From: a virus
DNA: 40,651 nucleotides
Reading direction: 5' to 3' (one strand)
IMG/VR virus record: IMGVR_UViG_3300028840_004707
Location: 1-40,651 of that record
The notes below the pieces were generated by a model, which worked only from the letters and a program-made list of their open reading frames with translations, was not told where the DNA came from and did no database searches. The position numbers and the translations under genes were made by a program. This document shows, one piece after another, positions 12,589-34,272 of the stretch. The stretch's first letter is position 1. Every line of letters starts with the position of its first letter.

Positions 12589-14142
12589 GTGGCGAAGTGG
12601 AGCCGGCTACATGAGCAGAAACGGCAGCGGATCCTGGAGCTGCTGGACCGCGAGGCCCGGCCGTTCGAGGACTTGTCCGACGAGGCGCGCGACGCCCGCC
12701 GGGCCCTGCCCTTCTTCGAGTGGTGCCGGACGTACCTGCCCCACTACTTCGGGGCGCCCTTCACGCCGGCGCACGAGCGCATGGTGGAGGCGGTGGGCGA
12801 GCCCGGCATGCCCACGTTTGTCTGCGCGTTCCGTGGCTTCGGCAAGAGTGTAATCCTGGCCCTCGCCCGGCCGCTCTGGCGCACGCTGCAACGCAGCGTC
12901 CCCTACTGGCTGTACGGCGCGGCCGTCAGGGATCTGGCCGCCCAGAACATGGACTACGTGCGGATCGAGCTCGAGCACAACCCGCGGATCCGTTGCGACT
13001 ATGGCGAGGCCCTTCGTTGCGACGGCGACGAGGGCGATTGGCTTGTGGAGCTGGGCGCCCGACAGCGCGGCGACGACGGCCGGTGGGCCCTCCAGCACTG
13101 CAAGTTTGAGGCGTTCGGCATCGGCATGAGCCCGCGCGGACGGCGCTCGGGTCCGCACCGGCCGCTGGAGTTTGTGGGCGACGACCTAGAGCACGCCGAG
13201 CTGGCCCGCAACCCGCGGCGCGAGCAGCAATTGTGGGACTGGCTCATGGATGGGGTCTATCCGGCCCTGGAGCCAAAAATCTTCAGATTCACGGTCCTGG
13301 GCACCATGTTCGGGCCGGATTGCATGCTGGAGCGCGCGCGGCGCACGGCCGAGAAGACCGACGACACGGGCCGGCCGCTGGCGCGCTACTTCCGCCGGTC
13401 GGCCCTGGATGAATCGGGCGCCAGCGTCTGGCCCGAGCGCTTCCCCGACGAGGAGCTGAGCCGCACTCGTGCGGTGCAGGGCCTGCGCAACTGGAATCGC
13501 AACTTCGCCCTCACCGCCGACGATCCCAGCAAGCCGTTCCAGCCGGACTGGTTCGGCCGCCGTTATAAGAAGCGCGAGCTGGATCCCGACCAGCTCGACC
13601 GCGTGGCCTTCCTCGACCCGGCCATCAGCGAGGCGCCGACCGGCTGCCCGCGCGCGCTCGTGGTGATTGGCTGCGACCGCAAGACGGGCGAGCGCTACGT
13701 GCTGGACGCCTGGATCAGCCGGGGCTCGCCGTCGGAGATGGTCGACCGGCTGTTCCGCTGCCAGACGCAGCATCGGCCGCGCGCCATCGGCATCGAGGGC
13801 AACGGCGGCTACGCCCTGATCCGGCCGCTGCTGGAGATCGAGGAGGAGCGACGGCGGCTGCGCATCCCTGCCCGCTACGTGCACCATTCGCGGCCCAAAG
13901 ACCTGCGGATCGAGAGCCTCTGCCCCGAGATGGAGACGGGCCGCTGGCTCTGGCCCGAGCACCCGCACGAGGGCATGAAGACACTGATCGATCAGTTCCT
14001 GAGCTACCCGGACGGGTTTGCGGACGGTCCCGACGCGACGGCCGGCTGCACGGAGATGCTGCCCGGCGCCTACCGCCCGGCCTCGACCGACGTGGGCTAC
14101 AAGTCGCTGCGCAAGCGGCGTGACCTGAGCGGGGTCCTCTGA
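12589..14142 (+). CDS. terminase large subunit (Mu gp28-like)
   Basis: A 517-residue packaging motor. The N-terminal ATPase domain has a Walker A-like AFRGFGKS (80-87) and a Walker B-like EFVGDDLEH (194-202). The C-terminal RuvC/RNase H-type nuclease has D343 in AFLDPA and a late DGPDATAGC that supplies further acidic residues. It pumps DNA into the prohead and cuts it when the head is full. GTG 12589 begins 6 bp after the previous stop. It overlaps the portal start by one base (TGATGG). Order and length agree with Mu-like phages. Confidence 0.9.
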   Translation: MAKWSRLHEQKRQRILELLDREARPFEDLSDEARDARRALPFFEWCRTYLPHYFGAPFTPAHERMVEAVGEPGMPTFVCAFRGFGKSVILALARPLWRTLQRSVPYWLYGAAVRDLAAQNMDYVRIELEHNPRIRCDYGEALRCDGDEGDWLVELGARQRGDDGRWALQHCKFEAFGIGMSPRGRRSGPHRPLEFVGDDLEHAELARNPRREQQLWDWLMDGVYPALEPKIFRFTVLGTMFGPDCMLERARRTAEKTDDTGRPLARYFRRSALDESGASVWPERFPDEELSRTRAVQGLRNWNRNFALTADDPSKPFQPDWFGRRYKKRELDPDQLDRVAFLDPAISEAPTGCPRALVVIGCDRKTGERYVLDAWISRGSPSEMVDRLFRCQTQHRPRAIGIEGNGGYALIRPLLEIEEERRRLRIPARYVHHSRPKDLRIESLCPEMETGRWLWPEHPHEGMKTLIDQFLSYPDGFADGPDATAGCTEMLPGAYRPASTDVGYKSLRKRRDLSGVL

Positions 14143-15546
14143 TGGCCACCGACCAACAGATCAGCAAGTGGGCCGACATGCTTGCCACGGGCCGGCTGCG
14201 TCCCGAGACGAAACCGCAGGCCGAGGCCACCGAGAACTGGGGCGGCCGGCGCGTGCAGCGGGAGAGCGATCTGGACGCCCTGACGCCCACGTCGATCAAA
14301 ACGCTGCTGCTGGACGCCGAGAACGGCGACATCGAGGCCCAGTGCGAGCTGTTCGAGCTGATGGAGGAGCGGGACGGCGAGCTGGCGGCCCACCTGCGCA
14401 CGCGCAAGGCGGGCGTGACGCGCTGCGACTGGAGCATCGTGGTCGACCCCAAGACGCCGGACCGCGACGTGGCGGCCGCCGAGCAAAGCGTGGCGCTCTG
14501 CGAGGAGGTTGTGGCGGGGATGCCCGGCATCCAGGACGCCATCTTCGACGCGCTCGACGCCACGGGCAAGGGCTTCAGCGTGCTCGAAATCATGTGGCAG
14601 ATGAGCCGCGCGGAGTGGCGGCCCGTCGATCTGCGCTACCGGCCCCAGCGGTGGTTCGCCCTGGCCGACGACGGGCGGACGTTGCTGATCCGGGGCGACG
14701 TCGGCGCCGACCCCGCCGCGATGAACCCCTACAACTTCATCGTGCATCGCTCCCGCGCCCAGAGCGGATTCGAATGGCGCACCAGCCTGATGCGCAGCTG
14801 CGTGCGGGCCTTCATCGTCCGGCACTACTCCTGGAAGGATTGGATGGCGCTGGCGGAGGTCTACGGCATGCCTCCGCGCATCGGGATCCTGCGCGAGGGC
14901 GTGGCCTGGGACAGCGCCGAAGCGCGCGGGCTCTGGGCGGCCGTCCAGGCCCTCGGCCAGGACTACGCCGCCGTGATCCAGGGCGGCAACGAGATCAACT
15001 TTCCGAGCGCGCAGCACGGCGAGGGGGCCATCTACCAGGCCATTCTGGAGAAGGCCGGGCGCGAGCTGACCATTGCCATTCTGGGCCAGACCCTGACCAG
15101 CGGCGGTGAGGGCGGCGGCTCCTATGCCCTGGGCGAGGTCCACAACCAGGTGCGCTGGGATCTGATCGAGTCCGACGCGAAGGGCCTGGAGCACACGATG
15201 ACGGAGCAGTTCCTGCGGCCCATCGTGCGCCTGAACCGGGGGCCGAACGCGCCGGTGCCGCTGTGGAACATCATCGTTGAGAAGCCCGAGAACCTCCAGG
15301 AGCTGGCGGCGACGATCAAGACGGCCGTCGAGACGGGCATCCACGTGAGCCAGCGGTGGGCGCAGGAGCGCCTGGGCATCCCCGAGCCGGAGCCCGACGA
15401 GGAGCTGATCGTGCCGCCCGCCATGGCGGCCCTTGCAACGCCCGTGCAGGCGGCGAACAACGCCGTTGCAGGCCCCCTGCTCAACGCCGGAATCGACACC
15501 GGATCGGTCCTGAATCAGGGGGTTCGTCTCAGGCTTGAGTCAGGAG
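14142..15546 (+). CDS. portal protein (Mu gp29-like, DUF935); true C-terminus uncertain
   Basis: The first ~465 residues read as a DUF935 portal: VQRESDLDALTPTSIKTLLLDAENGDIEAQCELFELMEERDGELAAHLRTRK, GFSVLEIMW, RPQRWFALADDG, NFIVHRSRA and LGQTLTSGG..GSYALG are family-typical segments. The portal forms the ring through which DNA enters the head. The frame stays open to 16235, but beyond about 15540 it is an arginine/glycine/proline-rich shadow of the next gene. No stop ends the protein where it should. Compared with Mu gp29 (512 residues) the recognisable part is short by about 50 residues. The end given here is a biological boundary, not a stop codon. Confidence 0.85.
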
Positions 15547-16938
15547 TCCACGGCGCGCGTTGCGGATCAACTGCTCCGCACTTTCCGCTCCGGCGAGACG
15601 GCGAACGAGTTTCTGGGGCGGCTGGAGGCGCTGGACCTGGCCGTGCCCGGTGGACAGACCCCGGAGGAGGGGCAGATCAGCGCGGCCCATGCGCGGCTCG
15701 TCGAGCGGCAGAACCGTTACAGCGCGTACGCCGCGGACCGTTGGATCAAGGGCCAGCGGACGCTCGCGCAGAGGCCCTACGGCCAGTACCACACGGCCGG
15801 CGACGAACGCGTCCGGCCCCACCACGCCGCCCTGGACGGCATCGTCAAGCTGCTGACCGATCCGTGGTGGAACAAGTACGCCCCGCCGCGGAAGTTCGGC
15901 TGCCGGTGCACGTTCACCACGCTCGGGCCGGACGAGCTGGAGATGGAGGGCCTGGCCGTGGCGGACGATGCCGAGGAGGCCGCCCGCTACCAGGCCGCCC
16001 TGTTGCTGCAGGACCAGGTCTACGGCGAAGCGGAGTTCAAGGAGGCCGTCCGCCGGCTCAAGCCCGAGATGGCCCGCCGCGAGAACCTGGAGCCGCTCAA
16101 GGCACCGGCGAATCCCGACTGGACTTTCGACCGAAACGACGCCTTCGGGCTCGAGTCCGAGGGCTGGGCCCCGCGCACGGATGCGGGTCATCGCGATGCC
16201 AAGATGCTGAATCGCCTCCCTCGCGTCGGCCTTGATCTGCGCGGTTCGGCGCTTCAAACGCCCGACTTGACAAGCCCCCGTGAACCCCAAGAGGGCCTCC
16301 CGAAACTTCTCAGCGATCTGAATGGCGAACAGATCAGCGAAGTCCATGCGGTCATTGCGGGGTTGCCGGGCTCCAAGTCGAGCGCGGCTGGCGCGAAGAA
16401 CCGACAAGGACTGGAGAAGGCGCTCACCAGCAAGGGTTGGGACGCCGAGCAAGCACATGCTTTGCTGGGCGCCATCGACCGCTGGACGGCCGGGTCCTAT
16501 GACGCGATCCGGCGCGGTACGAGTCAACGCGCGGTCGATATCCAAAACCGGCTACAAGACTTGGCCGTGCGCGGCAAGGATGGCACCGAACTGCATCGGG
16601 GTCTCAACTTCCAGTCGCCCCGAGAGCGGAAGGCTTTTCTAGATGCGTTTGGAAAGGGGGCGAAGGGGGAGATCCCGTTCCTCCAAAGCTTCAGCGAAGA
16701 TGGGCGGGTGGCGGAAGGCTTCGCGGTCAGCGGTTCTGCCGGAGAGTATGGGGTCGTTCTAAAGTTGAAGTCGACCGGCAAGCCGATCCCCGGCCTTGAC
16801 CTACAGAAGCTCAGCACGCTCCCGAGTGAGAAGGAAATCGTGACCCCCGCAGGCTTGCGCTACCAAGCGACCGGACAGCGCAAGCGGAAGATCAGCGGGC
16901 AGGACGTCATCGAGATCACTTTGGAGTTGCTGCCATGA
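15535..16938 (+). CDS. MuF-type minor head protein fused to an ADP-ribosyltransferase toxin domain
   Basis: A 467-residue protein. Residues 1-135 match the C-terminal half of MuF/SPP1 gp7 head proteins: RPYGQYHTAGDERVRPHHAALDGIVKLLTDPWWNKYAPPRKFGCRC. The C-terminal part (about 350-467) has the R-S-E pattern of ART toxins: R355 in ELHRGL, SFS (385-387) and E432-x-E434. MuF-ART fusions are known as phage-encoded polymorphic toxins carried in the virion. The stretch from about 16200 looks less GC-rich with different codon use, fitting a swapped toxin cassette. Oddly, the first ~60 residues of MuF are absent and the only available start is TTG 15535 with a poor ribosome site. Confidence 0.8.
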   Translation: MSQESTARVADQLLRTFRSGETANEFLGRLEALDLAVPGGQTPEEGQISAAHARLVERQNRYSAYAADRWIKGQRTLAQRPYGQYHTAGDERVRPHHAALDGIVKLLTDPWWNKYAPPRKFGCRCTFTTLGPDELEMEGLAVADDAEEAARYQAALLLQDQVYGEAEFKEAVRRLKPEMARRENLEPLKAPANPDWTFDRNDAFGLESEGWAPRTDAGHRDAKMLNRLPRVGLDLRGSALQTPDLTSPREPQEGLPKLLSDLNGEQISEVHAVIAGLPGSKSSAAGAKNRQGLEKALTSKGWDAEQAHALLGAIDRWTAGSYDAIRRGTSQRAVDIQNRLQDLAVRGKDGTELHRGLNFQSPRERKAFLDAFGKGAKGEIPFLQSFSEDGRVAEGFAVSGSAGEYGVVLKLKSTGKPIPGLDLQKLSTLPSEKEIVTPAGLRYQATGQRKRKISGQDVIEITLELLP

Positions 16939-18296: not shown

Positions 18297-18827
18297 ATGA
18301 CAGCTGTAACTCAATCCCGGAACACGTGGTACCAGCACGAGCGCGATACGCTGCTGATCCCGCTGGCGGCCGACGCCGTGGTCTATCCCGGCTGTCTGGC
18401 GTGCGTCGACGGCGACGGCTATCTCGTCGATGCTGACGACGCAGACGGCTACAAGGGATGCGTTCTCGTCGAGAGCGATCCCGACAACCCCGGAAGGGCC
18501 AGCTACGACAATACGGGCGGCTCGGACGGCGACATCCACGTCCTGTGCCGGACCAAGGGGCGGGTCCGCATGAAGCTGTACGGCCGGACCCCGCAGCAGG
18601 ACATGCTGTACGCCAAAGTCTACGTGGTCGACAACCAGACCGTGGCCGTGCACCGCTGGGATGTGACGCACGACATCCAGGCCGGGTTCATCACGAGACT
18701 GCCGGCGGACACGTTGGCCGCCTACCCACTCGCTGACTTCGACAGCGACGAGGTCGAGATCGAGCTCGGTGGGGAACCCTTCGACTGGGGTGACGAGTTG
18801 ACCACGACCACCACGGCACAGGCGTAA
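18297..18827 (+). CDS. head decoration-like protein with Thr-rich C-terminus
   Basis: A 176-residue beta-rich protein placed between the protease/scaffold and the major capsid gene, where decoration or capsid-cement proteins usually lie. Residues 15-130 alternate strands (LLIPLAADAVVYPGCLACVDGDGYLVDA, CVLVESD, VRMKLYGRTPQQDMLYAKVYVVDNQTVAVHR). The extreme C-terminus is DELTTTTTAQA, a Thr tract shared in spirit with the capsid and tail-tube proteins. ATG 18297 follows AGAGGAGA. Family assignment is from position and composition. Confidence 0.6.
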   Translation: MTAVTQSRNTWYQHERDTLLIPLAADAVVYPGCLACVDGDGYLVDADDADGYKGCVLVESDPDNPGRASYDNTGGSDGDIHVLCRTKGRVRMKLYGRTPQQDMLYAKVYVVDNQTVAVHRWDVTHDIQAGFITRLPADTLAAYPLADFDSDEVEIELGGEPFDWGDELTTTTTAQA

Positions 18828-18840
18828 CAATCGGGGCGAG

Positions 18841-18866
18841 GGCCCCGTCGCTCCGGTGGCGGGGTC
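18841..18866 (+). terminator. stem-loop after the decoration gene
   Basis: An 11-bp stem (18841-18851 with 18856-18866, three G-U pairs) and a TCCG loop. No T-tract follows, so it is more likely a partial attenuator or 3'-end stabiliser than a strong terminator. Confidence 0.5.
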
Positions 18867-18901
18867 ACGCGCCCAATCTCTTGCTGGAGGCTAAATGATC
18901 C

Positions 18902-19810
18902 ATGGAGATCACGCTTCAAGCACTGACCAGCCTCTTCCTGGGGCTGAAGAAGATCTATATGGACGCGCTCTCGGAGACCGCCACTCCGGAGATCGGCCGG
19001 CTGGTCTATCAAGATCGAGCCATAACCACAACCGATGAGTATCCCGCCAGCGGGCTGCTCGGCGACCTCGAGGAACACCTCGATGAACTCCACATGATCA
19101 ACATGTGGGAGATGCTCCAGCGGGCCAAGCCGATTCTCTTCGACGGCGCGATCCCGGTCAAGAGGCTGCACATCCTTAACGATCAGATCGGCGTCTACGA
19201 GAACGCGATCCGCGAGCTCGGCGAGGCGACCAAGACGCATCCCTACCGCAACGTGGCCCGCTGCCTCATGAACGGGTTTACCACGGTGTGGCTGCCGGAC
19301 GGGCAGAACATCTTCAGCAATGACCACGCCTGGCCGGGCGGCCAGGGCTGGGACAACCTGGAGCATCTGCCGCTGACGGCGGGCAACTTCGACATCGCCT
19401 GCCAGCACCTGGAGATGCGCGCCAGGCCCGACGGCCAACCATTGGGGATGGTTCCGCGGCTCCTGCTCGTCGGCCCGCTCAACAGGGCCAACGCGGAGAC
19501 CATCATCGAGATGCAGCTGATCGGCGGTGGCAACACCAACCGGCAGTACAAGCGATGCGAGCTACTTGTCGAGCCACGGATCAACACCCTGAACTGGTTC
19601 GTCATCGACGACGAGCGCCCGCCCATCGTGAACGACCTGCGCGAGGGGCCGGCGACAGACTCGCAGATCAGCAACGATTCCGACCATGTTTTCACGCGGA
19701 ATGAGTACCGCTTCAAGGCGTGGGTGAACTACGTCCTGGCCATCCTGCAGCCCTGGCGGATTCAGGCGAGCGACTGGGAGGAAGGCGATACAACCACAAC
19801 GGCCGCCTGA
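18902..19810 (+). CDS. T: major capsid protein (Mu gpT-like)
   Basis: A 302-residue protein that matches the Mu major head subunit family in length and pattern: N-terminal SLFLGLKKIYMDALSE, then TTTDEYPASGLLGDLEEHLDE, RAKPILFDGAIPVKRLHILNDQIGVYENAIRELGEATKTHPYRNVARCL, FSNDHAWPG, and a C-terminal FKAWVNYVLAILQPWRIQ. It forms the icosahedral head. ATG 18902 lies 11 bp after GGAGG; an out-of-frame ATG at 18895 is ignored. The last residues are EEGDTTTTAA, another Thr-rich tail. The gene is flanked by stem-loops on both sides, as expected for a highly expressed cistron. Confidence 0.9.
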   Translation: MEITLQALTSLFLGLKKIYMDALSETATPEIGRLVYQDRAITTTDEYPASGLLGDLEEHLDELHMINMWEMLQRAKPILFDGAIPVKRLHILNDQIGVYENAIRELGEATKTHPYRNVARCLMNGFTTVWLPDGQNIFSNDHAWPGGQGWDNLEHLPLTAGNFDIACQHLEMRARPDGQPLGMVPRLLLVGPLNRANAETIIEMQLIGGGNTNRQYKRCELLVEPRINTLNWFVIDDERPPIVNDLREGPATDSQISNDSDHVFTRNEYRFKAWVNYVLAILQPWRIQASDWEEGDTTTTAA

Positions 19811-19854
19811 CGGCCGTGACTGATGGGAACGGGCAACAGGTGCTCTCCTGAGCC

Positions 19855-19884
19855 CCGGCCCCGCCGTGCAGGCGGTGGGGCCGG
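19855..19884 (+). terminator. stem-loop after the major capsid gene
   Basis: A 12-bp stem (19855-19866 with 19873-19884, one G-U pair) and 6-base loop, very GC-rich, with no following T-tract. Probably an attenuator or mRNA-stabilising hairpin behind the most abundant head protein. Confidence 0.6.
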
Positions 19885-19921
19885 GCCTTGCCCGCACGAC
19901 ACCTGCGACAAGGAGGCCGGT

Positions 19922-20380
19922 ATGTTCATCACGCCCGATCAACTCATCACCCGCTTCGGCGCGGACAACATCGTCCGCCTGAGCGGCGAGAAGCCGGAGA
20001 CCGAAGAGGAGCGGAAAAAGCTCCTCAAGGACCTGGCCGTCACCGTGGCCGAGGCCTGTGCGGCGACCAACTCCATGATCGCCAAACAGATCGCGGCGCC
20101 GGAAGGCGCTGTGGTGCCCCAGGTGCTGCAGCAGCGCGCCGGGGACATCGCCTTCTACCGTCTGCACGTTCTGCTCGGGGCGCCGCTCAGGGGCGCTGTG
20201 CGGACGCCCTACGAGGCGGCCATCGAGCACATAGCCCGGCTGCGCGACGCCGGCGCACGGCTGGAGGCGCCGCCGGCGCCGGAGCCCAAGCCCGCTCCCA
20301 CGGCCAGGCCGAAGGTGAAGCCGAAGGCCTCCGAGCCCGAGGCGAAGCCCGAGACCGGCACGAAGACCGAGGAGGCGTAG
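19922..20380 (+). CDS. head-completion-type protein (diverged gp36/DUF1320-like)
   Basis: A 152-residue protein. Its start MFITPDQLITRFGADNIVRLSGE and AGDIAFYRLHVLLG echo the 'Y-TP-DLI-RFG' and 'DIA-YRL' segments of Mu gp36/DUF1320 proteins, although the middle differs. The last 40 residues are a Pro/Lys/Glu-rich tail. ATG 19922 follows AAGGAGG. The next gene is a clearer DUF1320 member, so this may be a diverged tandem copy or the analogue of Mu gp35. It would act at the head-tail connector. Confidence 0.55.
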   Translation: MFITPDQLITRFGADNIVRLSGEKPETEEERKKLLKDLAVTVAEACAATNSMIAKQIAAPEGAVVPQVLQQRAGDIAFYRLHVLLGAPLRGAVRTPYEAAIEHIARLRDAGARLEAPPAPEPKPAPTARPKVKPKASEPEAKPETGTKTEEA

Positions 20381-20417
20381 GGCCCCCTCCCAAGCATCCG
20401 CATGAGGAGGGCGCCCC

Positions 20418-20846
20418 ATGGCCCATCCTGGCTATTGCACGCAGGACGATCTGGAGGATCGCTACCGGTCCGAGAACCTGACGGCCCTGGCCGACTACGA
20501 CGGCGACGGCGCAGCGGACTCCGACACCGTCGCCAAGGCCATCGGCGACGCCAGCCACGAGATCGACAGCTACCTCCAGGTCAAGTATGCCGTGCCGATC
20601 ACGCCCGCGCCGGACTGCCTCCGCCGCTGCGCGACCACCATGGCCTGGTACTACCTGCGCCTGGGCCGCGAGAGCGTGACGGAGGACGCACAAAAGGCCT
20701 ACGACCGCTGCATCAAGATGCTGGAGGGCATCGCGGCCGGGGAGATCGGCATCGGCGTCGATCCCCTGCCCGCCGAATCGAGCGGCGCGGCCACCGTCCA
20801 CTCCAGCGCGCAGGACCGCCTGTTCGGGAGGGACAAGCCGCTGTGA
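20418..20846 (+). CDS. DUF1320 (Mu gp36-like) head-tail connector protein
   Basis: A 142-residue protein with the family pattern: YCTQDDLEDRYRSENLTALAD, then DASHEIDSYLQVKYAVPITPAPDCLRRCATTMAWYYL. gp36-like proteins are adaptor or head-completion proteins. ATG 20418 follows GAGGAGGG. This ribosome site could pair with an upstream CCCTCC near 20385-20391, which might damp translation. It overlaps the next gene by 4 bases (GTGA). Confidence 0.75.
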   Translation: MAHPGYCTQDDLEDRYRSENLTALADYDGDGAADSDTVAKAIGDASHEIDSYLQVKYAVPITPAPDCLRRCATTMAWYYLRLGRESVTEDAQKAYDRCIKMLEGIAAGEIGIGVDPLPAESSGAATVHSSAQDRLFGRDKPL

Positions 20847-21424
20847 CGGGCATCACGATCAAAACCAACATCCGCAAAGTCGCCCGCGAAATCGCGAAGC
20901 TGGCGGATCGCGTCGAAGACATGGAGCCCGTCGCGGAGGATTTTGGGGCGCACATGGTGCGGAGCTGGACGCTGAAGTTTCCGCGCACGCCGGGCCACGA
21001 GCCCGGCCCGCCGGGCGGTCCGCCGGCGGTGCAGGCGGGCGGCCTCCGCAACAGCCTGACCTATGAGGTCGAGGCCAGAGGCGACCGGGTGCGCGTCGGC
21101 ACGCCGCTCAAGTACGGCGGCATCCTCCACAGGGGCGGCGAAATCCGGCCGGTGCGGCGCCGCGCGCTCACCGTCCCCATCAGCCCGCGCAGTTACGGCA
21201 AGCGGGCGAAGGACTTCGGCGATGCCCTCTTCCGCATCCCGCCAAAGCCGGGCCAGGAACCGGAGGACCTGGGCGTGCTGGCCATCGAGGAGGGCGGCGA
21301 CGTGGTGCCCCTGTTCGCGTTGCGGACGAAGGTGCGGATCCCCGCGCGGCCCTGGGCCCTGATTTATCCCGAGGACTACGACTACCTGGAGCGGCGCCTC
21401 AAGCGCCACGTGGAGGGTGGCTGA
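20843..21424 (+). CDS. G: Mu G-like virion morphogenesis / tail completion protein
   Basis: A 193-residue basic protein with the pattern of phage virion morphogenesis proteins: an N-terminal helix (RKVAREIAKLADRVEDMEPVAEDFGAHMVRSWTLKF), a flexible loop (PRTPGHEPGPPGGPPAVQAGGLRNSLTYEV) and strands ending RIPARPWALIYPEDYDYL, where 'PARP' is a family hallmark. GTG 20843 makes a GTGA overlap with the DUF1320 gene. It helps join head and tail. Confidence 0.75.
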   Translation: MTGITIKTNIRKVAREIAKLADRVEDMEPVAEDFGAHMVRSWTLKFPRTPGHEPGPPGGPPAVQAGGLRNSLTYEVEARGDRVRVGTPLKYGGILHRGGEIRPVRRRALTVPISPRSYGKRAKDFGDALFRIPPKPGQEPEDLGVLAIEEGGDVVPLFALRTKVRIPARPWALIYPEDYDYLERRLKRHVEGG

Positions 21425-21903
21425 TGCCGAATGAGAACTTCCTCACGCGCGGACGTCTGGCCCTGGTCCGCCGGCTCCAGCAGAACGCACTGCTGCTGGA
21501 TCGCATCGCCGAGCCGCACTGGTTCCTGTTCGGTTCCGGCCTGCACAAGCGCGTGATCATCGAGCCGAGCTCGTGCCCCTTCTGTGCCGTCGCGCCGGCC
21601 GAGCAGGAGTGGGATCAGATCAGCAACGCCTTTGTGCAGACCCCGCAGATCCTCCAGGTCGACTTCGGCGTGGTCGGGCAGGACGCCGAGCCGATGGAGG
21701 ACCTGGTGGCCGCGCTGGCCGACGTGGTCCTCGAGGCCAACGAGGATGCCATGGAGCTGGCGAGCGACGGCCTGGCGAGCGTGCAGTCGAGCGGCACGGT
21801 ATGGGAAGCGCGCACGGACAAGGAGGCGGCTCAGTTCATCTGGATCACAACCACGCGGGTGACGCTGCTGTGGAATCGGCGGCGACCGCTCGCCACCACG
21901 TAA
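21424..21903 (+). CDS. tail terminator/minor tail candidate
   Basis: A 159-residue protein coupled to the preceding gene (TGATG). Its composition and order (N-terminal helix, then strands IIEPSSCPFCA, QILQVDFGVVGQ, a helix, FIWITTTRVTLLWN) fit small tail-completion or terminator proteins, and it lies just before the tail tube gene where a terminator is expected. I do not recognise the sequence family. Confidence 0.5.
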   Translation: MPNENFLTRGRLALVRRLQQNALLLDRIAEPHWFLFGSGLHKRVIIEPSSCPFCAVAPAEQEWDQISNAFVQTPQILQVDFGVVGQDAEPMEDLVAALADVVLEANEDAMELASDGLASVQSSGTVWEARTDKEAAQFIWITTTRVTLLWNRRRPLATT

Positions 21904-21918
21904 CCGGAGGAGAGATCG

Positions 21919-22893
21919 ATGCCCGGAGCGATAGGGACCCCCCACCTGGGCGCCCGCCGGCACATACGCATCAGCCAGGAGGCCACGTTCGGGACGGTCA
22001 ACCCCGCTCCGAGCTGGGTCTACGTGCCAATCCTCGAGGACGGCATGAAGCTGAAGGCGACGAGCCCGCGCTACCGCCCCGACACAAACTTCGGCGGCGA
22101 CTACCGTCGCCACGTGCACGTCTGCCACTCGCTGCAGTCGAGCGGCGACATCATCTGCAACCCGTGGCCCGAGGTCACGGGCTACCTGCTGGACATGGCG
22201 CTGGCCCGCACGGCGGCCCACGACCTGAACAGCTATACGGTCGATCACTTCACACCTACGGATCCGCGCCGCTACACAGGCACCGTGATCGACCGGCTTA
22301 CCATCGCCGTCACGGGCACGGGCGACGCCGACGTCCGGCTCACGCTCGGCTGCGTGGCCAAGCTCGAGGCCGAAAACGACGACCTGGAGGAGGCCAGCTT
22401 TACCTACGCCGGCGTGACCCCGGTGCCGTTTATGTTCCGGGACGCTGCGATCCTCATCGGGGCCATCCACCGGATCGACTTGGAGGCGTTCACCATCACG
22501 GTGGAGAACAACCTGGCGCAGGGGCCGAACGTGCAGACAGCCGGGACTGAGCAGGGCACCGTCGGCTACCTGATCGCCCAGCAGCGGGCCATCAGCCTGG
22601 AGCTGACGGAGCTCAACGTCGGCGACACCATCAACGAGGCCATCCGCGACTGCAACCCGCTGGCGTTTGAGGCGCGGTTCAGCCATCCGGACGGGCACAT
22701 GTGGCAGATACAGCTCCCCTACATCTACCCGGAGGAGAGCGACGAGGACGGCACGCCGAGCCAGGTCACCAAGGAAAGCCCGAGGTTCGAGGTCGGCTGC
22801 GACGACGGCGGCTGCGACATCATCTACGGCGTCGACCTGGCCGCTGGCGGCACCACGACCTTGGCCGAGCTGACCACCACGGCGCCGGCCTGA
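21919..22893 (+). CDS. tail tube protein
   Basis: A 324-residue beta-rich protein with the features of siphovirus tail-tube proteins: an N-terminal 'RRHIRISQEATFGTVN' motif (the family's G-E-TFGT pattern), repeated strand segments, and a C-terminal ENNLAQGPNVQTAGTEQ region. It precedes the frameshifting chaperone and tape measure exactly as tail tubes do. ATG 21919 follows CCGGAGGAGAG. The protein ends GGTTTLAELTTTAPA, a Thr-rich tail. A perfect hairpin follows. Confidence 0.78.
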   Translation: MPGAIGTPHLGARRHIRISQEATFGTVNPAPSWVYVPILEDGMKLKATSPRYRPDTNFGGDYRRHVHVCHSLQSSGDIICNPWPEVTGYLLDMALARTAAHDLNSYTVDHFTPTDPRRYTGTVIDRLTIAVTGTGDADVRLTLGCVAKLEAENDDLEEASFTYAGVTPVPFMFRDAAILIGAIHRIDLEAFTITVENNLAQGPNVQTAGTEQGTVGYLIAQQRAISLELTELNVGDTINEAIRDCNPLAFEARFSHPDGHMWQIQLPYIYPEESDEDGTPSQVTKESPRFEVGCDDGGCDIIYGVDLAAGGTTTLAELTTTAPA

Positions 22894-25346: not shown

Positions 25347-26135
25347 GTGGCAGCCGGATACTTCAACGATGGCTCGATCAACATCGAGCTCGGCGCGCAC
25401 GTGTTCGCGTCGACCACGGGCTACCGCCGCAACCTGAGCCTGACGCCGCACGGCAGCCCGGCGCGGATCCTGGATTCCGGAGGCGGCACGCAGGAGCTGA
25501 GCGTGAGGGGCCAGCGCCTGCGCGCCAACATGGGCGACGCCGAGCGCTGGATCTACGAGATCCTGCTGGCCCTCGCTACCAGCGACCCCGGCGAGCTGGG
25601 CGTGCAGGACAATCTGGGCAACCAGGCCGTTTTCGGCGACGCCGTCTGCGTCGGGGCCAGCGGCGAGGTGCAGGCCTTTCGTTTCGCGGACGTGCGCTAC
25701 ACCTTCCTGGCCCCCGAGGTCTCGGCGCAGGGCGCGTTCGGCGCGGTGCCGGCCGCGCCCGCTACGTACGGCGGCACGAGCACGGCCCAGAACTACCAGG
25801 TCGACGCCGCCGACGTTGGCGACCACGGCGTCAGCCTCCGAATCGAAATGACGCGCAGCTATCCCCTGCGCGAGATCCCGCGCTGCCGGGGAGCCCGCGC
25901 GAGAGGCCCCGCCAGCAACGCGCGGATCCGCCTGATCGTGACGAGCCACCTGGTCGATACGACCCAGACCATCTGGGAGGCCGTCGAGGCCCTGGTGCGC
26001 GGGATCGGCCCGCGGCACGTCGATCTTACCGGCAACGGCAACACCTACGCCGACGTGCTGCTGGAGAGCGTCCGGCCGGGGCTGACGGACCTGAACCACA
26101 CGGCCATCGAGGCCGAGTTTCTGATGGAGGTGTGA
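25347..26135 (+). CDS. distal tail-like protein
   Basis: A 262-residue beta-rich protein right after the tape measure. It begins AAGYFNDGSINIELGAHVFASTTGYRRNLSLTPHGSPARIL and ends DVLLESVRPGLTDLNHTAIEAEFLMEV. Position and strand content fit a distal tail (Dit) protein that joins tube and hub. Family is not recognised by motif. GTG 25347 follows GGGAGGGCGAC. Confidence 0.55.
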   Translation: MAAGYFNDGSINIELGAHVFASTTGYRRNLSLTPHGSPARILDSGGGTQELSVRGQRLRANMGDAERWIYEILLALATSDPGELGVQDNLGNQAVFGDAVCVGASGEVQAFRFADVRYTFLAPEVSAQGAFGAVPAAPATYGGTSTAQNYQVDAADVGDHGVSLRIEMTRSYPLREIPRCRGARARGPASNARIRLIVTSHLVDTTQTIWEAVEALVRGIGPRHVDLTGNGNTYADVLLESVRPGLTDLNHTAIEAEFLMEV

Positions 26136-26399: not shown

Positions 26400-28970
26400 T
26401 TGGCCGACTGCTCGGTCTACATCGATGGCGTGCTGAACGCCGACGTGAACCTGCACGTCGACTACGTGCAGGCCAGCTACATCGCGCCGTGGGAGGCGGG
26501 CCTGACCTACGCCGGCTGCCACGACGCGCCCACCGGCGTCCGCATGTGGGATGAAGTGCGGATCGAAGAGGGCGGCAGCGTGCGCTTCCGGGGGAACGTG
26601 ACGGTGATCCGGCCCGGCGGCGTGGGCTCAGAGGGCGTCGAGATCATTGCCAGGGGGAAGCGGTTCCGCCTCGAGAACGAACCGGTCCGCATCAACGGGC
26701 GCGGCTATTACATCTGGAATCGCCGGGGCATGCTGTGCACGGATGGCCAGGGCGGCGAGGACTCGCCCGGCGCGGACGGCGGCAAGTGGACGGCCGGCGA
26801 GATCGTGATCGACATCCTGGAGCACGCTCTGGGCCTGCCCGCGCTCGGCTCGGACATCCCCGCCCACCACGGCGACGCCTGCTGCATCGTGGATACCTAC
26901 CTGACGATGGCCGACGTCGCGGGCTACACGGCTGCCGACTGGCTCGCCCTGGACAGCGTCGTCGGCGAGTTTGTGGTGGACAACACGAGCGTGGCCGACG
27001 CGATCAGCCTGCTGGTGGCCCTCAACGGCGGATTCTACGGCTGGTATATCCATCCCAATACGGGGGCACTGGTGCTCCGCGACCTGAACGCCCTGCCCGA
27101 GACCGACATCGAGGCCGGCGAGCACGGCCAGTGGCAGGACGCCGGCGGCACGGACTACCGCCTGCTGGGCAACGAGCTGACCTGGAGCCTGGACGGCGTC
27201 TGCTCCACCATCGCGATCCAGGGCACCGACCGGTTGCAGGAAGAGCAGCCGGCCAACATCGAAGGGACGGGGAATCCCGGCAGCGGCAACCTGGGCGAGC
27301 TCGAACAGGTTGCCGCCCCCTGGCGTGACTGGGATGCCGCCTACCACGCCCTGTGCCAGGAGACCCGCCGCTTCTGCTCCCGCCCCATCGACGACGCCAG
27401 CGCCTACACGCCGCCCGCCGGCTACATGGGCTACAGCTTCACTCCCCGCGTCTACGTGGGCACGGACGCCGGGGCCAAGACGATCTATTCACCCTCCTCG
27501 CACGTCTACCCGACCTGGATGAAGCCCTGCGGCATCATCGGCTTCAACGAGGTGCCCGCGCTCGGAGTCGGCGAGAAACTGTGGGGCTGGTACTGGGCCG
27601 AGATCCCGTTCACCGTCACGGCCGGCCCGGACGGCGACGCCTACCACTGCTACGGCTACGAGCGCACGCGGACGGTCTACGATCCGGCCTTCAAGCACAC
27701 CACGAGCTACCCCCAGGCCGGCGAGGCCGACGACGAGGTGGCCATGGGCATCCTGGCCGAGCGCCTGCTCGAGCTCTACTGCAACGTCCGCCGCCAGGGC
27801 ACGCTGCGCGTCGACGAGGTTGACTTTGCTTCTTACACCCTCAGCCGCCGCTACAACGTCGTCAACCTCGGCCCGCTCGTCTGCGGCGAGGCCAGCACCA
27901 CGGAGGCGCCCGAGTGCACGCTCGATCCCATGACATGGGAGACACTGGCCGTCAATGCCGTTGAGGTCACCTGGGATCTCCGCACCGACACCACGGACAT
28001 CCGCGTGGCGAACACCTTCTTCATGCTCGAAGAGTACTCCGAGCTGAAGCGGCGGCTGGAGATGAACCTGTTCGCCGCGCGCGACCTCGACCTGAGCGAG
28101 GACATCTACGACTGCCAGACGGACGCCCCCGAGATCCACGACGACGGCAGCGAGATCGAGCCCATCACGACGACGGAAGCGCCTCCCGGCACCACGACCA
28201 CCGAGGCCCCCGGCCCGACGACCACCGTTCCCTCTGGGCCGACCACGACCCAGCCGCCCGCCGGCACGACGACCACCGAAGCGCCCGGCACTACGACGAC
28301 CCAGGCCCCGCCCGGCACAACGACGACCGAGGCGCCTGGCACAACGACGACCGAGGCGCCCGGCTCCACGACGACCCAGGCACCGGAGCCCCCGACGACC
28401 ACCACAACGTCGGGCGGCGGCCCCGGCCCCGGCACAACTGAAGCGCCCGGCCCCACCACGACGGAGCCGGCGGGCGGCACCACGACCGAGGCCGGGGGCC
28501 CGACGACAACGGAGCCGGCGGGCGGCACCACGACCGAGGCCGAACCGCCGACCACGACCACGACGGGCTGCCCAGATTCGTGCAGCCTCTGCCCCTACAC
28601 CCTGTGCGTGGACGTGGGCAGCTTCGGTTGCAGCGATGATCCCGAGGACTGCACCAACATCTTCCCGACGGCCGGGCTGATGACGTTCGTCCAAGACGAA
28701 GTCGACCCCTGCGTCTGGTGGTTCGACTCCTCCACCGACACGGCCATCAGTGTCAGCATCCAGTGCGCCCGCTCGGGCAACCTGCCGGGTTGGAGCTTCG
28801 AAGTCAACAACGGGATCTGTGGCAATATCCGCTGCACCTACCACCGGCCAGCCAACAACGATTGCCCCGGCGGCAACTACTCGAACGTCTCGCACCTGAA
28901 CTGCGAGGACCACTGTCCCGGCTCGCTCACGGTCTACAACTGCAACGTCACATCCACGGAGGCCCCGTGA
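26400..28970 (+). CDS. tail hub protein with mucin-like Thr/Glu/Pro linker and Cys-rich end domain
   Basis: An 856-residue tail protein in three parts. Residues 1-585 are a beta-rich hub-like region beginning ADCSVYIDGVLNADVNLHVDYVQASY, with segments such as WDEVRIEEGGSVRFRGNVTVI typical of baseplate hubs. Residues about 588-722 are a low-complexity linker of TTTTEAPG-type repeats. Residues 723-856 form a compact domain with 14 cysteines (CPDSCSLCPYTLC start), probably disulfide-bonded and possibly a receptor or glycan binder. TTG 26400 is the start implied by the frame and has only a weak ribosome site. The protein ends TSTEAP. Confidence 0.72.
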   Translation: MADCSVYIDGVLNADVNLHVDYVQASYIAPWEAGLTYAGCHDAPTGVRMWDEVRIEEGGSVRFRGNVTVIRPGGVGSEGVEIIARGKRFRLENEPVRINGRGYYIWNRRGMLCTDGQGGEDSPGADGGKWTAGEIVIDILEHALGLPALGSDIPAHHGDACCIVDTYLTMADVAGYTAADWLALDSVVGEFVVDNTSVADAISLLVALNGGFYGWYIHPNTGALVLRDLNALPETDIEAGEHGQWQDAGGTDYRLLGNELTWSLDGVCSTIAIQGTDRLQEEQPANIEGTGNPGSGNLGELEQVAAPWRDWDAAYHALCQETRRFCSRPIDDASAYTPPAGYMGYSFTPRVYVGTDAGAKTIYSPSSHVYPTWMKPCGIIGFNEVPALGVGEKLWGWYWAEIPFTVTAGPDGDAYHCYGYERTRTVYDPAFKHTTSYPQAGEADDEVAMGILAERLLELYCNVRRQGTLRVDEVDFASYTLSRRYNVVNLGPLVCGEASTTEAPECTLDPMTWETLAVNAVEVTWDLRTDTTDIRVANTFFMLEEYSELKRRLEMNLFAARDLDLSEDIYDCQTDAPEIHDDGSEIEPITTTEAPPGTTTTEAPGPTTTVPSGPTTTQPPAGTTTTEAPGTTTTQAPPGTTTTEAPGTTTTEAPGSTTTQAPEPPTTTTTSGGGPGPGTTEAPGPTTTEPAGGTTTEAGGPTTTEPAGGTTTEAEPPTTTTTGCPDSCSLCPYTLCVDVGSFGCSDDPEDCTNIFPTAGLMTFVQDEVDPCVWWFDSSTDTAISVSIQCARSGNLPGWSFEVNNGICGNIRCTYHRPANNDCPGGNYSNVSHLNCEDHCPGSLTVYNCNVTSTEAP
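28160..28570 (+). repeat. degenerate Thr/Glu/Pro repeat tract in the hub gene
   Basis: Irregular repeats of ACSACSACSACC-GAG-GCG-CCC type encode TTTTEAPG, TTTTQAPP and TTTEPAGG units. Unit length varies between 8 and 12 residues, so it looks older or more drifted than the tract in the fibre gene. Confidence 0.85.
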
Positions 28971-29374
28971 TGGATCCCGGCGCGTTCCAGGCACGCATCC
29001 GCCGCTGCGCGGCTTGTGAGCACCGGCGCAATGCGCACGCGAGCGTCTGGCGGTGGCCCCGCTGCATCGCGCTCGATAAAGAGCTCGTGCTCGACAACGA
29101 CTTCATGGCCGGGCCGGTCGACAACTGCCCCCTGGGCCTCTGGCGCGACCTGGAGCCGGTCGACCTGGACGCCGAACGCGCGGCCGCAGGGGCGAAGCGT
29201 CTCGTGCGCGAGCGCCAGGTGCTCGGGCCGCTCGTCGCGGCCCTGGTCCGCGGGCTCGACGAGCACGAAATGACCCGCCGCCTGCTGCTGCCGGTGCGGG
29301 CCGGGCTGATTCTGCCGGAGACGGCCGACGCCATCCTCGAGGGAGATATCCAGCCGATGGAGGAGCCGAAGTGA
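28970..29374 (+). CDS. small Cys-rich (zinc-binding?) protein
   Basis: A 134-residue protein whose first 55 residues hold five cysteines (CAACEHRRN, WPRCIALD, VDNCPLGLW), a likely C4 zinc site of the kind often seen in small genes next to phage tail fibres. The rest is helical. ATG 28970 overlaps the hub stop (TGATG), and the end overlaps the glycosyltransferase start by 4 bases (GTGA), so all three are coupled. Function unknown; the coupling suggests a helper for the hub or the transferase. Confidence 0.55.
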   Translation: MDPGAFQARIRRCAACEHRRNAHASVWRWPRCIALDKELVLDNDFMAGPVDNCPLGLWRDLEPVDLDAERAAAGAKRLVRERQVLGPLVAALVRGLDEHEMTRRLLLPVRAGLILPETADAILEGDIQPMEEPK

Positions 29375-31839
29375 GCCGAGAGGACCGCCTGCAGATGTTC
29401 CGGGACGCCGCCGCCGAGGGGCTGCCGGCCGAGAAACCCCGCGCCGCGGAGCCCGAGGGGGGCGCCGGCCATTGCATCTTCGGCTCGCCCTCCCGCACGT
29501 GCCGCCGCAAGGTCGCCTGCCGCCGCCTCGACGCGGTTGTGAGGAGCGTGCCGCGCGAGCGGTGCGCGAGCTGCCCCGAGCGGATCGAGCGCCTCTCCAT
29601 CAGCGCCATCTTCACGGCCTTCAACGAGGGCGAGCAGGTCCGCCAAACCCTGGAGTCGGCCGCCGCGTCCGTGAACGACGCCGAGCTCCAGATCATTCTG
29701 ATCGACGATGCCTCGACGGACGGCTCCTGCGACGGGCGCGACGACTGGAATCTGGGCGATGCCACGCTCACCTACATCCGCCACGACGAGCCCTGGGGCG
29801 TGGGCCGCAGCCGCAACGCCGGGGCCGCCGCCGCGACGGGCCACGTCCTCAGCTTCCACGACGCCCACATGCGGTTCAAGCCGGGCGGGCTGGAGGCGCT
29901 GGCGCACAAAGCCCTCACGACCGAGGCCGTCATCTGCAGCTCCTGCTGCCACTTCAACCAGCAGAAGCCCGGCTACCACGGCTGCTGCGTCTTCTGGAAT
30001 CGCGAGTGCGGCCTCCAGCCCAAGTGGCGGCTCGCCGTGCCTGAACAGCCCTTCGGTCGCGTGCCCGGCATGATGGGCGCGGGCTACGTCATGAGCCGGG
30101 ACACCATCGACCGACTATCCGAGCCCACCGGGCAGCTCTGGGAGGACACCGCCGGCCTTTGGGGCCACAGCGAGGAGGCCCTCGACGTCAAGGCTTTCCT
30201 GCTCGACGTGCCGATCCTGGCCAGTCGGGACGAGTGGATCAGCCACCTGTTTAAGAAGGCGAACCCGATTGCCAAGGCCGGCAAGCAGAAGTGGCGCAAC
30301 ATCACGCGCGCCATGGGCCTGCTGCTGCCTCCGGAGGTCTTCGACCTGCGCTTCCGCGCCTGGTGTGAGAACCGCCTGGGGCAGAAGGAGGTCGCGCGCA
30401 TCCTCCAGGGCATCCAGCCGGTGCCCGTCGACACATGGAAGAGGCCGGTGTCGGAGATCTGGACCCACCTGTGCGGCAAGGGCGCCACCGTGGCCGAGCG
30501 GCATCCGGATCACGAGTGGATGGACGAGGTGGAGGCGGCGGCCCGCGCGCTGCCGGCCGGCGCCCGCGTCCTCTGCTGGCGGCCCGGCGAGGCCCTGCTC
30601 CGCCTGCGCGACCTGGCGCCCGACGCCGCGATCCACGCCATCGAGCTCGACGGCCACCGCTACCGTAACTGGGCCGAGATCTGCAAGGCCACGGAGATCA
30701 AGCTCGAGCAGATCTCGCTCGACAAGGACTATGTCGAGCGCCCGCGCCTCTGGGCCGACCGCGACGCCAGCCCCTACGACCTGGTCCTCGTCGGGGGCGA
30801 GCTGCAAGGGGAGTGCAGGGCCGTTGCAGAGGGCCTGGTCCGGCCCGGCGGACGCATCATCATGCACCCGGCCGCTGACCGCCGGCAGATCGAGCACGAG
30901 CAGATCAAGAAGGAGAAGAAGCGAATCGAGCACCAGCTCAAGAACCGCGCGAAACAGCGCCGGGCGTCCGGCCACGCCCGTGCGCAGACCGCCGCCCCGG
31001 CCGTGCCACAACAGCCGCCCGTTGGGCCTTCGGCGGGCGGCGCGTCCTCCCGTGCGGACGGGGCGGCCCCCCTCGTGACGGTGCTGCTGCTGAACTGGGG
31101 CCGGCCCGACAACATCGGCCCCATCCTGGACCGCCTGGCGGCCCAAACCGTGCCTCTGACTGTCTACGTCTGGAACAACGGCAACCCGCTGCTCTTCCAC
31201 CAGGACGGCGGCGAGGGCGTCCCCCTCGAAGAGCACCCGCTCGTGGGGCTGCACCTTCAGTCCAGCGTCAACGAGCGCTGCTGGCCGCGCTGGCTCCTCG
31301 CCGGCCTGGCCACCACGCCCTACGTCTGCACGCACGACGACGACCTGCTGCTGGGCGACGTGCGCGTGCTCGAAGATGCCGTCGAGGCGCACCGGACCAA
31401 GTGCCCGGACGGCGTCGTCGGCTTCTTCGGCGTCGAGCGCATCGACGGCCGGCCCTTCCGCGCCTGGCGCCACATCAACGGGACCAAGAACCAGCAGGAC
31501 CGCCGCGTCGACTTTGTCAAGGGCCGTTTTATGCTGCTCCGGCGCGAGCTGCTTCAGCGTGTGCCCCTGGTCAACCCGCCCTTTGATCAGGTGCCGCCCA
31601 CCGAGCGGCTCGGCGACGACATCAACGTCTGCCTCTCGATCACGGGCGGGCGCGCCGGCGGCTGCCTGATCCCCGGCGAGCTCGGCAAGCGCTGGCGCGA
31701 GCTTAAGACCCAGTACAAGGGGCGGGCGCTGTGCACGAAGCGCGGCCACTACGAGCGCCGAGGCGAGGTGTTCGAGCGGCTGCGCGCCTGGCAGGGCCTC
31801 CAACGCGAGACCCAAGAGATCCTGGAGGTAAGGACATGA
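29371..31839 (+). CDS. three-part glycosyltransferase: GalNAc-T-like GT, methyltransferase-like middle, second GT
   Basis: An 822-residue fusion. After a Cys-rich start (35-70) comes a GT-A domain: SISAIFTAFNEGEQV (76-90), DDASTDGS (112-119), D-A-H (164-166), and GMMGAGYVMSRDTID...WGHSEEALDVK (233-274). The D-x-H metal motif and the 'WG-ENLE' equivalent are hallmarks of polypeptide GalNAc-transferases (GT27-like). Residues 395-500 look like a degenerate Rossmann methyltransferase (AIHAIELDGHRY, YDLVLVGGE). A charged linker leads to a second GT-A domain (568-780) with THDDDLL (654-660). It is translationally coupled to the hub operon. Its most likely substrate, by inference, is the Thr-rich tracts of the neighbouring tail proteins. 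Confidence 0.72.
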   Translation: MSREDRLQMFRDAAAEGLPAEKPRAAEPEGGAGHCIFGSPSRTCRRKVACRRLDAVVRSVPRERCASCPERIERLSISAIFTAFNEGEQVRQTLESAAASVNDAELQIILIDDASTDGSCDGRDDWNLGDATLTYIRHDEPWGVGRSRNAGAAAATGHVLSFHDAHMRFKPGGLEALAHKALTTEAVICSSCCHFNQQKPGYHGCCVFWNRECGLQPKWRLAVPEQPFGRVPGMMGAGYVMSRDTIDRLSEPTGQLWEDTAGLWGHSEEALDVKAFLLDVPILASRDEWISHLFKKANPIAKAGKQKWRNITRAMGLLLPPEVFDLRFRAWCENRLGQKEVARILQGIQPVPVDTWKRPVSEIWTHLCGKGATVAERHPDHEWMDEVEAAARALPAGARVLCWRPGEALLRLRDLAPDAAIHAIELDGHRYRNWAEICKATEIKLEQISLDKDYVERPRLWADRDASPYDLVLVGGELQGECRAVAEGLVRPGGRIIMHPAADRRQIEHEQIKKEKKRIEHQLKNRAKQRRASGHARAQTAAPAVPQQPPVGPSAGGASSRADGAAPLVTVLLLNWGRPDNIGPILDRLAAQTVPLTVYVWNNGNPLLFHQDGGEGVPLEEHPLVGLHLQSSVNERCWPRWLLAGLATTPYVCTHDDDLLLGDVRVLEDAVEAHRTKCPDGVVGFFGVERIDGRPFRAWRHINGTKNQQDRRVDFVKGRFMLLRRELLQRVPLVNPPFDQVPPTERLGDDINVCLSITGGRAGGCLIPGELGKRWRELKTQYKGRALCTKRGHYERRGEVFERLRAWQGLQRETQEILEVRT

Positions 31840-32829: not shown

Positions 32830-34272
32830 GTGGCGGATCTGAGCCTCAACACCCCCGAAGCGCTCACGACCGACCAGGAGCGGTACGAGTGGCTGGAGGT
32901 CCTGCGCGAGAAGGCGCGCAGGGACCGCAACCAGCGCTGCGCGGCGATGAACCCCGCCGACGCCCTGGAGTGGGAACGCCGTGAGTTCCTGCCCCGCAAC
33001 CGGGCGATTTCGCGCGAGATCGTGCGCCTGCGCCACGCCCTGTGGCCCCTGGCCGAGCGGGCGCGGGACGAGGCGGAGCCCTCGCCGTGGCTGGGGCAGA
33101 AGGCCCAGACCCGCGAGCTGCGGGACGATTCCGCGGCGTTGCAGAGCATCGACCTGGCCACGGTATTCGCCGGCAGCGCCCAGGCGCGGGAGTTGGCCGA
33201 CCCATACGAAGACTTCACCACCTACACCAAGCAAGACACGAACGGCCGGCTCGACATAGCCCAGAATACGATCACGTTTACGGGCCTGACGCGCGCCGAG
33301 GACTGCTGGGTCTACGAGGCGGGCCACACCTTCGGCTCGACGTTCGAGCATCACCTCGACAGCCAGGTCACGGATTACGACGGGCCAGATGGCATCGCCG
33401 TGATTTGGGCGGTTGCCAACAGCGTGGACAATGCATATAGGTGGAACACGAACTGGGAAGAAGCCGTGTACCTCCGCTGGTATCAGGCGAATCCCATACT
33501 CTACGTGCGCGAGACGGAGGACGGCGACAACGACCAGACTGTCGCCTTTGGGCGCGATACCTGGGCATATGTCCAGATCGACCGCGACGGCAACGATTGG
33601 GATATACGCATCTACACGGGCTCGCACGGCGGCGTCCTGTGGGATACGCTGACCATCGCCACGCAGGACAACCGCACCTACTCGACCATTTTTGCCATCA
33701 ATACCCACAACAGTGGGGCGCCCAACCCGCTCAGCGGGCAGGTGGCGAACCTGGACCTGAACGAGGCGGCGGCTACGACGACCACGACCACCGAAGCGCC
33801 GCCGCCCACGACCACCACGACTGAGGCCCCTCCGCCGACGACCACGACGACCGAGGCGCCGCCTCCTACGACCACCACGACCGAGGCCCCGCCGCCAACG
33901 ACCACCACGACCGAAGCACCTCCGCCGACAACCACCACGACCGAAGCGCCGCCGCCGACAACCACCACGACCGAAGCGCCGCCGCCCACGACCACCACGA
34001 CCGAGGCCCCGCCCCCAACGACCACCACGACCGAGGTGCCGCCGCCGACAACCACCACGACCGAAGCAGCTCCGCCGACGACCACCACGACCGAGGCGCC
34101 GCCGCCCACGACCACGACGACTGAGGCGCCGGGGCCAACCACAACCGAGGCCGGCGGCGTCGGGCCGGTCCTGGAGGCCACGAAGGAGGCGCCGCTCATC
34201 GAGGCCACCGTGCCCGCGCACCGTCTGGCCGTCAGCTACGGGCCACCGTCCATCGCCGAGACCATTCCATAG
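32830..34272 (+). CDS. tail fibre-like protein with lectin-like domain and perfect TTTTTEAPPP repeats
   Basis: A 480-residue protein. Residues 1-115 are helical and charged, probably the virion attachment part. Residues about 120-310 are a jelly-roll/concanavalin-like region (DPYEDFTTYTK..., ITFTGLTRAEDCWVYEA, WAYVQIDRDGNDWDIRIYTGSHGGVLWDT), typical of carbohydrate-binding LamG-type folds. Residues 315-440 are about twelve near-perfect 10-residue repeats TTTTTEAPPP. A short end follows (VGPVLEATKEAPLIEATVP). GTG 32830 follows the previous stop directly. It is likely a receptor-binding protein on a mucin-like stalk. Confidence 0.68.
   Translation: MADLSLNTPEALTTDQERYEWLEVLREKARRDRNQRCAAMNPADALEWERREFLPRNRAISREIVRLRHALWPLAERARDEAEPSPWLGQKAQTRELRDDSAALQSIDLATVFAGSAQARELADPYEDFTTYTKQDTNGRLDIAQNTITFTGLTRAEDCWVYEAGHTFGSTFEHHLDSQVTDYDGPDGIAVIWAVANSVDNAYRWNTNWEEAVYLRWYQANPILYVRETEDGDNDQTVAFGRDTWAYVQIDRDGNDWDIRIYTGSHGGVLWDTLTIATQDNRTYSTIFAINTHNSGAPNPLSGQVANLDLNEAAATTTTTTEAPPPTTTTTEAPPPTTTTTEAPPPTTTTTEAPPPTTTTTEAPPPTTTTTEAPPPTTTTTEAPPPTTTTTEAPPPTTTTTEVPPPTTTTTEAAPPTTTTTEAPPPTTTTTEAPGPTTTEAGGVGPVLEATKEAPLIEATVPAHRLAVSYGPPSIAETIP
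33774..34150 (+). repeat. 30-bp tandem repeat encoding TTTTTEAPPP
   Basis: About twelve copies of a 30-bp unit (ACSACSACSACGACC-GAR-GCN-CCNCCNCCN). Differences are mostly synonymous third-base changes (GAA/GAG, GCG/GCC/GCA, CCG/CCC/CCT). One copy has EVPPP and one EAAPP. Length change by slippage is likely. Confidence 0.93.

Follow-up and report, generated by a model that had tools for sequence, protein, structure and literature searches.

Threonine-rich tails and linkers of virion proteins

The window analysed in this study, the whole 40,651 bases of IMG/VR virus record IMGVR_UViG_3300028840_004707, encodes three virion proteins that end in short runs of threonine (Thr), namely a capsid decoration protein (ending ELTTTTTAQA), the major capsid protein (MCP; GDTTTTAA) and the tail tube protein (GGTTTLAELTTTAPA). 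These tails had been pointed out in an earlier reading made from the letters of the DNA (the sequence-only reading), and all three are present in frame at the sites it named. Its view that the tailed proteins are otherwise unrelated agrees with their assignment to three separate PHROG families (1731, 371 and 290), and the Thr-rich linkers that it described in the tail hub-like and fibre-like proteins were also found (Table 1): the hub linker holds approximately 17 TTT runs, and the fibre-like linker consists of 12.3 copies of a 30-bp unit encoding TTTTTEAPPP. When 27 open reading frames (ORFs) of the window were shuffled, 1 of 5000 trials gave three ORFs whose final 10 residues contained TTT; because this test was post hoc, the main weight is placed on the conservation of tails in relatives chosen by other genes.

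The decoration protein was predicted by AlphaFold to have a confident beta core (approximately residues 18-135), while residues 164-176 were mostly of low confidence. Its top Foldseek matches were the capsid decoration proteins of Sf11, T1, HFTV1, Pam3 and TW1 (highest probability 1.00, lowest E 1.6e-3), and the fold is thus common to solved phage capsid decoration proteins and the protein of the window.

Distribution of tails among relatives

Single-protein scans of viral contigs with the MCP, portal and TerL found no relatives. The first relatives were obtained through scans for Thr patterns and later ones through a TerL alignment; L135, L136/L181 and L062 were left out as independent support because they were first found through their own Thr runs. 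The TerL alignment search returned 14 loci, two of them seeds of the alignment, and the sample of relatives includes one near-duplicate pair (L179 and L180). A portal alignment matched two contigs of Planctomycetota metagenome-assembled genomes (MAGs), which suggests that phylum as the host of this uncultured phage group. When 392 Planctomycetota genomes were searched with TerL, G391 was identified as one more close relative, along with two prophage-like loci that are only distantly related.

The decoration protein carried a Thr tail in all 12 genomes sampled by TerL beyond the two seeds, in both MAGs sampled by portal and in G391. Its ends in close relatives include SPATTTTTAAA, APTTTTTSGA, ATTTTTGQA, APTTTTTTAQA, EPTTTTAGA, TTTTTAAPTTTTS and EPTTTTAGG, among others, while the proteins themselves are only about 35-40% identical to that of the window (54% in one case). 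Counted as TTT in the last 16 residues, tails were found on 15/15 decoration proteins, 9/14 tube proteins (the TTT of L178 being internal, not a tail), 4/11 distal tail proteins (the gene at 25347-26135), 2/17 MCPs and 1/3 hubs. None was seen among 16 TerL, 16 portal and 16 protease proteins, among the connectors g7 (17) and g8 (14), or on five glycosyltransferases. The tube tails of relatives read TTTTTEAP, TTTTTTAAP, TTTTAGE and TTTTTAP, those of the distal tail protein TTTTTTSA and TTTTTPA, and one hub, a protein whose N-terminal part is 51-73% identical in relatives, ends TTTTTTLVP.

MCP tails were seen only in the window, L170 and L172, L235 having a reduced ATTAAA. The four MCPs group in one supported clade (96/98) when the tails of all but L235 are left out of the tree, and the capsid tail was therefore probably gained once. 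The decoration tail is, as judged from the homologues compared, ancestral to the phage group, so that the term convergent, which the sequence-only reading had applied to the tails, is right only in part. The decoration protein is thus apparently the constitutive carrier, with the capsid, tube, distal tail protein and hub as extra carriers in some lineages.

The portal ORF at 14142-16235 matches those of relatives only to about residue 434. Since its last 260 residues overlap an ORF (15535-16938) that has homologues, a frameshift or an overlooked gene boundary within 14142-16938 is suggested.

A linked glycosyltransferase resembling polypeptide GalNAc-transferases

A glycosyltransferase (GT), here called GT1, is encoded just downstream of the hub, among late virion genes. 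In 6/6 relatives whose contigs extend past the hub, an orthologue (36-50% identity over the best segment) is found close to the hub gene; where no GT was seen, the record, as far as examined, stops within or ahead of the hub, or is short. Two further glycosyltransferases (GT B and GT C) and the conserved gene at 35054-35845 are also kept in the longest relatives. The product of the latter possibly belongs to the alkaline phosphatase superfamily and, being kept next to GT genes in several relatives, may decorate the glycan.

Compared with solved structures, the N-terminal domain of GT1 matched polypeptide N-acetylgalactosamine (GalNAc) transferases first (phmmer E 3.4e-6), and a profile of the domain searched against PDB gave ppGalNAc-T2 as its best matches (E 4e-15). 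With a structure model of GT1 (pLDDT 73, pTM 0.75), the top 48 Foldseek matches were all polypeptide GalNAc-transferase chains (best E 5.8e-11). All seven GT1 sequences compared share FHD(A/G)HM, which falls on the metal-binding DxH of GalNAc-T2 (FLDSHC) in the alignment. GalNAc-transferases carry the catalytic-loop motif WGGEN, in place of which the GT1 sequences have WG[FH]SE. As a control, the neighbouring GT B gave no GalNAc-transferase matches (best match chondroitin synthase, E 0.003), and because it behaves differently the match of GT1 is not a generic effect of GT2 enzymes. No close GT1 was found among 50,697 phage records. The C-terminal half of GT1 (30361-31836) gave only weak GT2 signals (PF13641, E 0.02; PF00535, E 0.1) and no solved relative was found for it; it may hold further domains.

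Tails and glycosyltransferases in and beyond the phage group

When viral contigs were searched with GT1 as the only query, eight loci were obtained; six were already known, and both of the new genomes were tailed. The decoration protein of L227 ends SPATTTTTAA, and in G500 the tube ends TTTAAPTTTAAATTTGA and the distal tail protein TTTTETATTTGA. G500 also has two tandem decoration paralogues with long Thr-rich tails (L235:35-823 and L235:847-1434), which end TTTTVAATTVAATTTAGQA and (TTEAA)nTTTTTQGG. As an outgroup, Pseudomonas phage MP29 (Casadabanvirus) has decoration and major head proteins homologous to those of the window and in the same order; unlike in the window group, they bear no Thr tails, and no PF00535 glycosyltransferase was found in its whole genome.

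Unrelated phages, too, have Thr-tailed major capsid or tail proteins (Table 1), and the tails are often borne by the products of two adjacent genes; at L027, L093 and L115 another protein of the same locus is Thr-tailed. A GT2 was detected in 6/40 unrelated Thr-tailed records compared to 1/50 chance-match control contigs, a difference that is driven by the longest records, the two sets differing in length and GC. A GT1 profile search of the unrelated Thr-tailed phages found nothing, and a literature search for Thr tails in phages returned nothing relevant. The comparison that the sequence-only reading had proposed, of homologues with and without GT genes, was clean within the lineage and against MP29, and mixed in unrelated phages. 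In the latter, either other enzymes (of the host, or not of the GT2 type) may act, or the tails may be useful without glycosylation.

Elsewhere in the window, a degenerate 36/72-bp tandem repeat (TGGCTCGCTC...TGGTTCCCTC) lies early in the record (3039-3282), and a D12-class adenine-specific DNA methyltransferase (39459-40322) lies at its end. Rfam and tRNA scans of the window gave no matches.

Table 1. Tailed proteins, linkers and glycan-cluster genes of the window, and Thr-tailed proteins of unrelated phages
Feature	Position	Strand	Details
Capsid decoration protein (phrog_1731)	18297-18827	+	Thr tail TTTTTAQA at 18801-18824
MCP (phrog_371, Mu gpT-like)	18902-19810	+	Thr tail TTTTAA at 19790-19807
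Tail tube protein (phrog_290)	21919-22893	+	TTT at 22852-22860; terminal TTTAPA at 22873-22890
Tail hub-like protein	26400-28970	+	Thr-rich linker 28167-28566 (TTTEAPG-like units); Cys-rich C-terminal domain; terminal TSTEAP at 28950-28967
Glycosyltransferase GT1	29371-31839	+	Polypeptide-GalNAc-transferase-like N-terminal domain 29512-30360; DxH motif FHDAHM at 29854-29871
Fibre-like protein	32830-34272	+	(TTTTTEAPPP)n linker at 33775-34146
Conserved gene of glycan cluster	35054-35845	+	Weak PglZ match, below cut-off
S-adenosylmethionine-dependent methyltransferase, glycan cluster	35855-36436	+	
Second GT2 glycosyltransferase (GT B)	37466-38512	+	
Third GT2-like glycosyltransferase (GT C)	38509-39462	+	Weak PF00535
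Unrelated Thr-tailed protein	L027:8480-9523		phrog_29, PTTTTTTTSK
Unrelated Thr-tailed protein	L093:7876-8736		phrog_422, STTTTA
Unrelated Thr-tailed protein	L115:3623-4804	-	phrog_10, GTTTSK
Unrelated Thr-tailed protein	L145:3088-3603		phrog_158, TTTTTTAAA

Proposed function of the tails

The tails and the TTTTEAP linkers are probably acceptors for phage-encoded O-glycosylation that is initiated by GT1 and extended by the enzymes of the cluster, a reading that we hold with moderate confidence. The presence and conservation of the tails, their confinement to exposed virion proteins and the linkage of a GT with the solved relatives nearest to it are shown by the analysis; Thr as the acceptor, the sugar, the order of the enzymes and the benefit are inferred. 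On the surface of the particle, the tails would serve as mucin-like acceptor tags that are short and flexible; GT1 would place the first sugar on their threonines and on those of the hub and fibre linkers; and the glycan would be extended and capped by the GT2 enzymes and methyltransferase encoded downstream. The resulting coat could change how the phage adsorbs, protect the particle from binding or degradation, or retain it in host mucus or exopolysaccharide. The account in which GT1 acts on both tails and linkers is the most economical. GalNAc-transferases prefer Thr-rich segments with proline nearby, which TTTEAP and TTTAAP resemble. The suggestion of the sequence-only reading that the tails share a common acceptor role for modification gains support from their occurrence only on exposed virion proteins, from their persistence while the decoration protein diverges, and from the conserved GT that they accompany, whose nearest solved relatives are polypeptide GalNAc-transferases.

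Several points weigh against this reading. The virion glycan is predicted, and the GT2 enzymes could act instead on DNA or on host surface glycans. The GT1 model is moderate (pLDDT 73) and superimposes on GalNAc-transferases with TM 0.52-0.61 and root-mean-square deviations of about 7-12 Å, and no ricin-type lectin domain was found among the Pfam matches in the 822-residue protein. No relative with an intact downstream region and no GT was found, so the association of tails with GT within the family has no internal negative. In addition, 34/40 of the unrelated Thr-tailed records, several of them 40-81 kb long, have no detectable GT2, and Thr tails alone thus do not imply a phage GT.

There are several alternative explanations for the tails. 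They could be spacers or adhesive tails, flexible and without modification, whose low-complexity sequence is hydrophilic and tolerates proteases and which act alone in the manner of the hub and fibre linkers. The low confidence with which the tail is predicted, as expected of a disordered segment, is consistent with this, as are the variation in tail length and neighbouring residues and the tails that unrelated phages (L115, L093, L027 and L145), often without a detectable GT2, carry on major capsid and tail proteins. However, a spacer made of glycine, serine, glutamate or proline would do as well, whereas every homologue retains Thr runs, and the linked GalNAc-transferase-like enzyme would be left unexplained; we consider this explanation rather unlikely. 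Less likely still is that the GT cluster modifies phage DNA or a host surface polysaccharide (for example in O-antigen conversion) and that the tails are unconnected with it. Such roles are common for phage GT2 enzymes, and the best PHROG matches of GT1 and GT B include, weakly, GtrB-like O-antigen conversion and beta-1,4-glycosyltransferase families, but the nearest solved relatives of GT1 are polypeptide transferases, its gene keeps its place close to the hub, among the late virion genes, and sampling by GT1 first recovered only tailed phages.

Finally, it is very improbable that the tails arose by slippage or by copying of a common Thr-codon repeat in DNA and have no selected function: the hub and fibre linkers are indeed tandem DNA repeats (30 bp x 12.3; 24 bp) and (TTEAA)n occurs in the decoration tail of one relative, but every decoration homologue is tailed and all non-surface proteins are without tails, adjacent Thr codons within the tail runs are identical in 42/151 cases compared to 52.2 +/- 5.6 when Thr codons are shuffled among runs, and the longest exact DNA matches between the three tails and the linkers are within the range of synonymous recoding. 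Because codons are mixed and no more DNA is shared with the linkers than in synonymous shuffles, the tails are, on this codon evidence, maintained as protein sequence, and the shared DNA-level expansion that the sequence-only reading had offered as an alternative is not borne out for the short tails.

Comparison with known systems

Polypeptide GalNAc-transferases (CAZy GT27) are the initiators of mucin-type O-glycosylation, attaching the first sugar to mucins in animals, and a C-terminal ricin-type lectin domain is common, but not universal, among them. They are closest to the GT1 N-terminal domain by profile and fold, with the DxH motif in both; the GT-A fold of GT1 is closest to GT27 structures (TM ~0.55, from the moderate model), and the Thr/Ala/Pro/Glu acceptor-like sequences of the window phage resemble mucin repeats. 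GT1 differs from GT27 in its low identity (approximately 20%) as well as in its catalytic-loop sequence and the lack of a detected lectin domain, and, unlike the animal enzymes, it would act in the bacterial cytoplasm.

Virion glycosylation in the mycobacteriophages Che8, Corndog and Myrna was reportedly described by Freeman et al. 2023 (Cell Host Microbe). According to three papers, enzymes encoded by these phages glycosylate the capsid and tail tube, with glycans at the C-termini (PMC12619734, PMC12363180, PMC11256854). The window group likewise encodes its own glycosyltransferases, and acceptor-like tails are seen at its C-termini. However, the capsid and tail proteins of Che8 end NKTGS and YSDGS, without Thr runs; hhalign detected no similarity between Che8 gp110 and GT1 (probability 0.2); a GT1 profile search of the Che8 genome gave no match; and in the window group, unlike the mycobacteriophage type, the decoration protein is the constitutive carrier. 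By analogy the window group would work like mycobacteriophage glycosylation, but membership in that type is unsupported, and the group is set apart because the Che8 enzymes and C-termini differ. The Myrna tube ends TTTV in the region examined, to which no firm meaning is attached.

Significance

Glycosylation of phage particle proteins is documented for a few mycobacteriophages, whose sequences do not make the acceptor rule evident. The putative acceptor of the window group, in contrast, can be read directly as a conserved Thr tail of three to six threonines followed by alanine or glycine. Because the acceptor is readable and a candidate initiating enzyme is linked and named, it would become possible to predict virion glycosylation from genomes and to test it with two cloned genes. 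A wider proposal, which we regard as possible but somewhat doubtful, is that this lineage has its own mucin-type O-glycosylation, with a polypeptide-GalNAc-transferase-like enzyme and with Thr-rich tails that serve as dedicated acceptors on the decoration protein, capsid, tube, distal tail protein and hub, and that Thr tails are a recurrent surface tag evolved by unrelated phages on their major capsid and tail proteins. If GT1 is a true polypeptide GalNAc-transferase, mucin-type initiation chemistry would be placed in phages of bacteria, and the enzyme would offer a cytoplasmic, prokaryotic tool to O-glycosylate chosen proteins.

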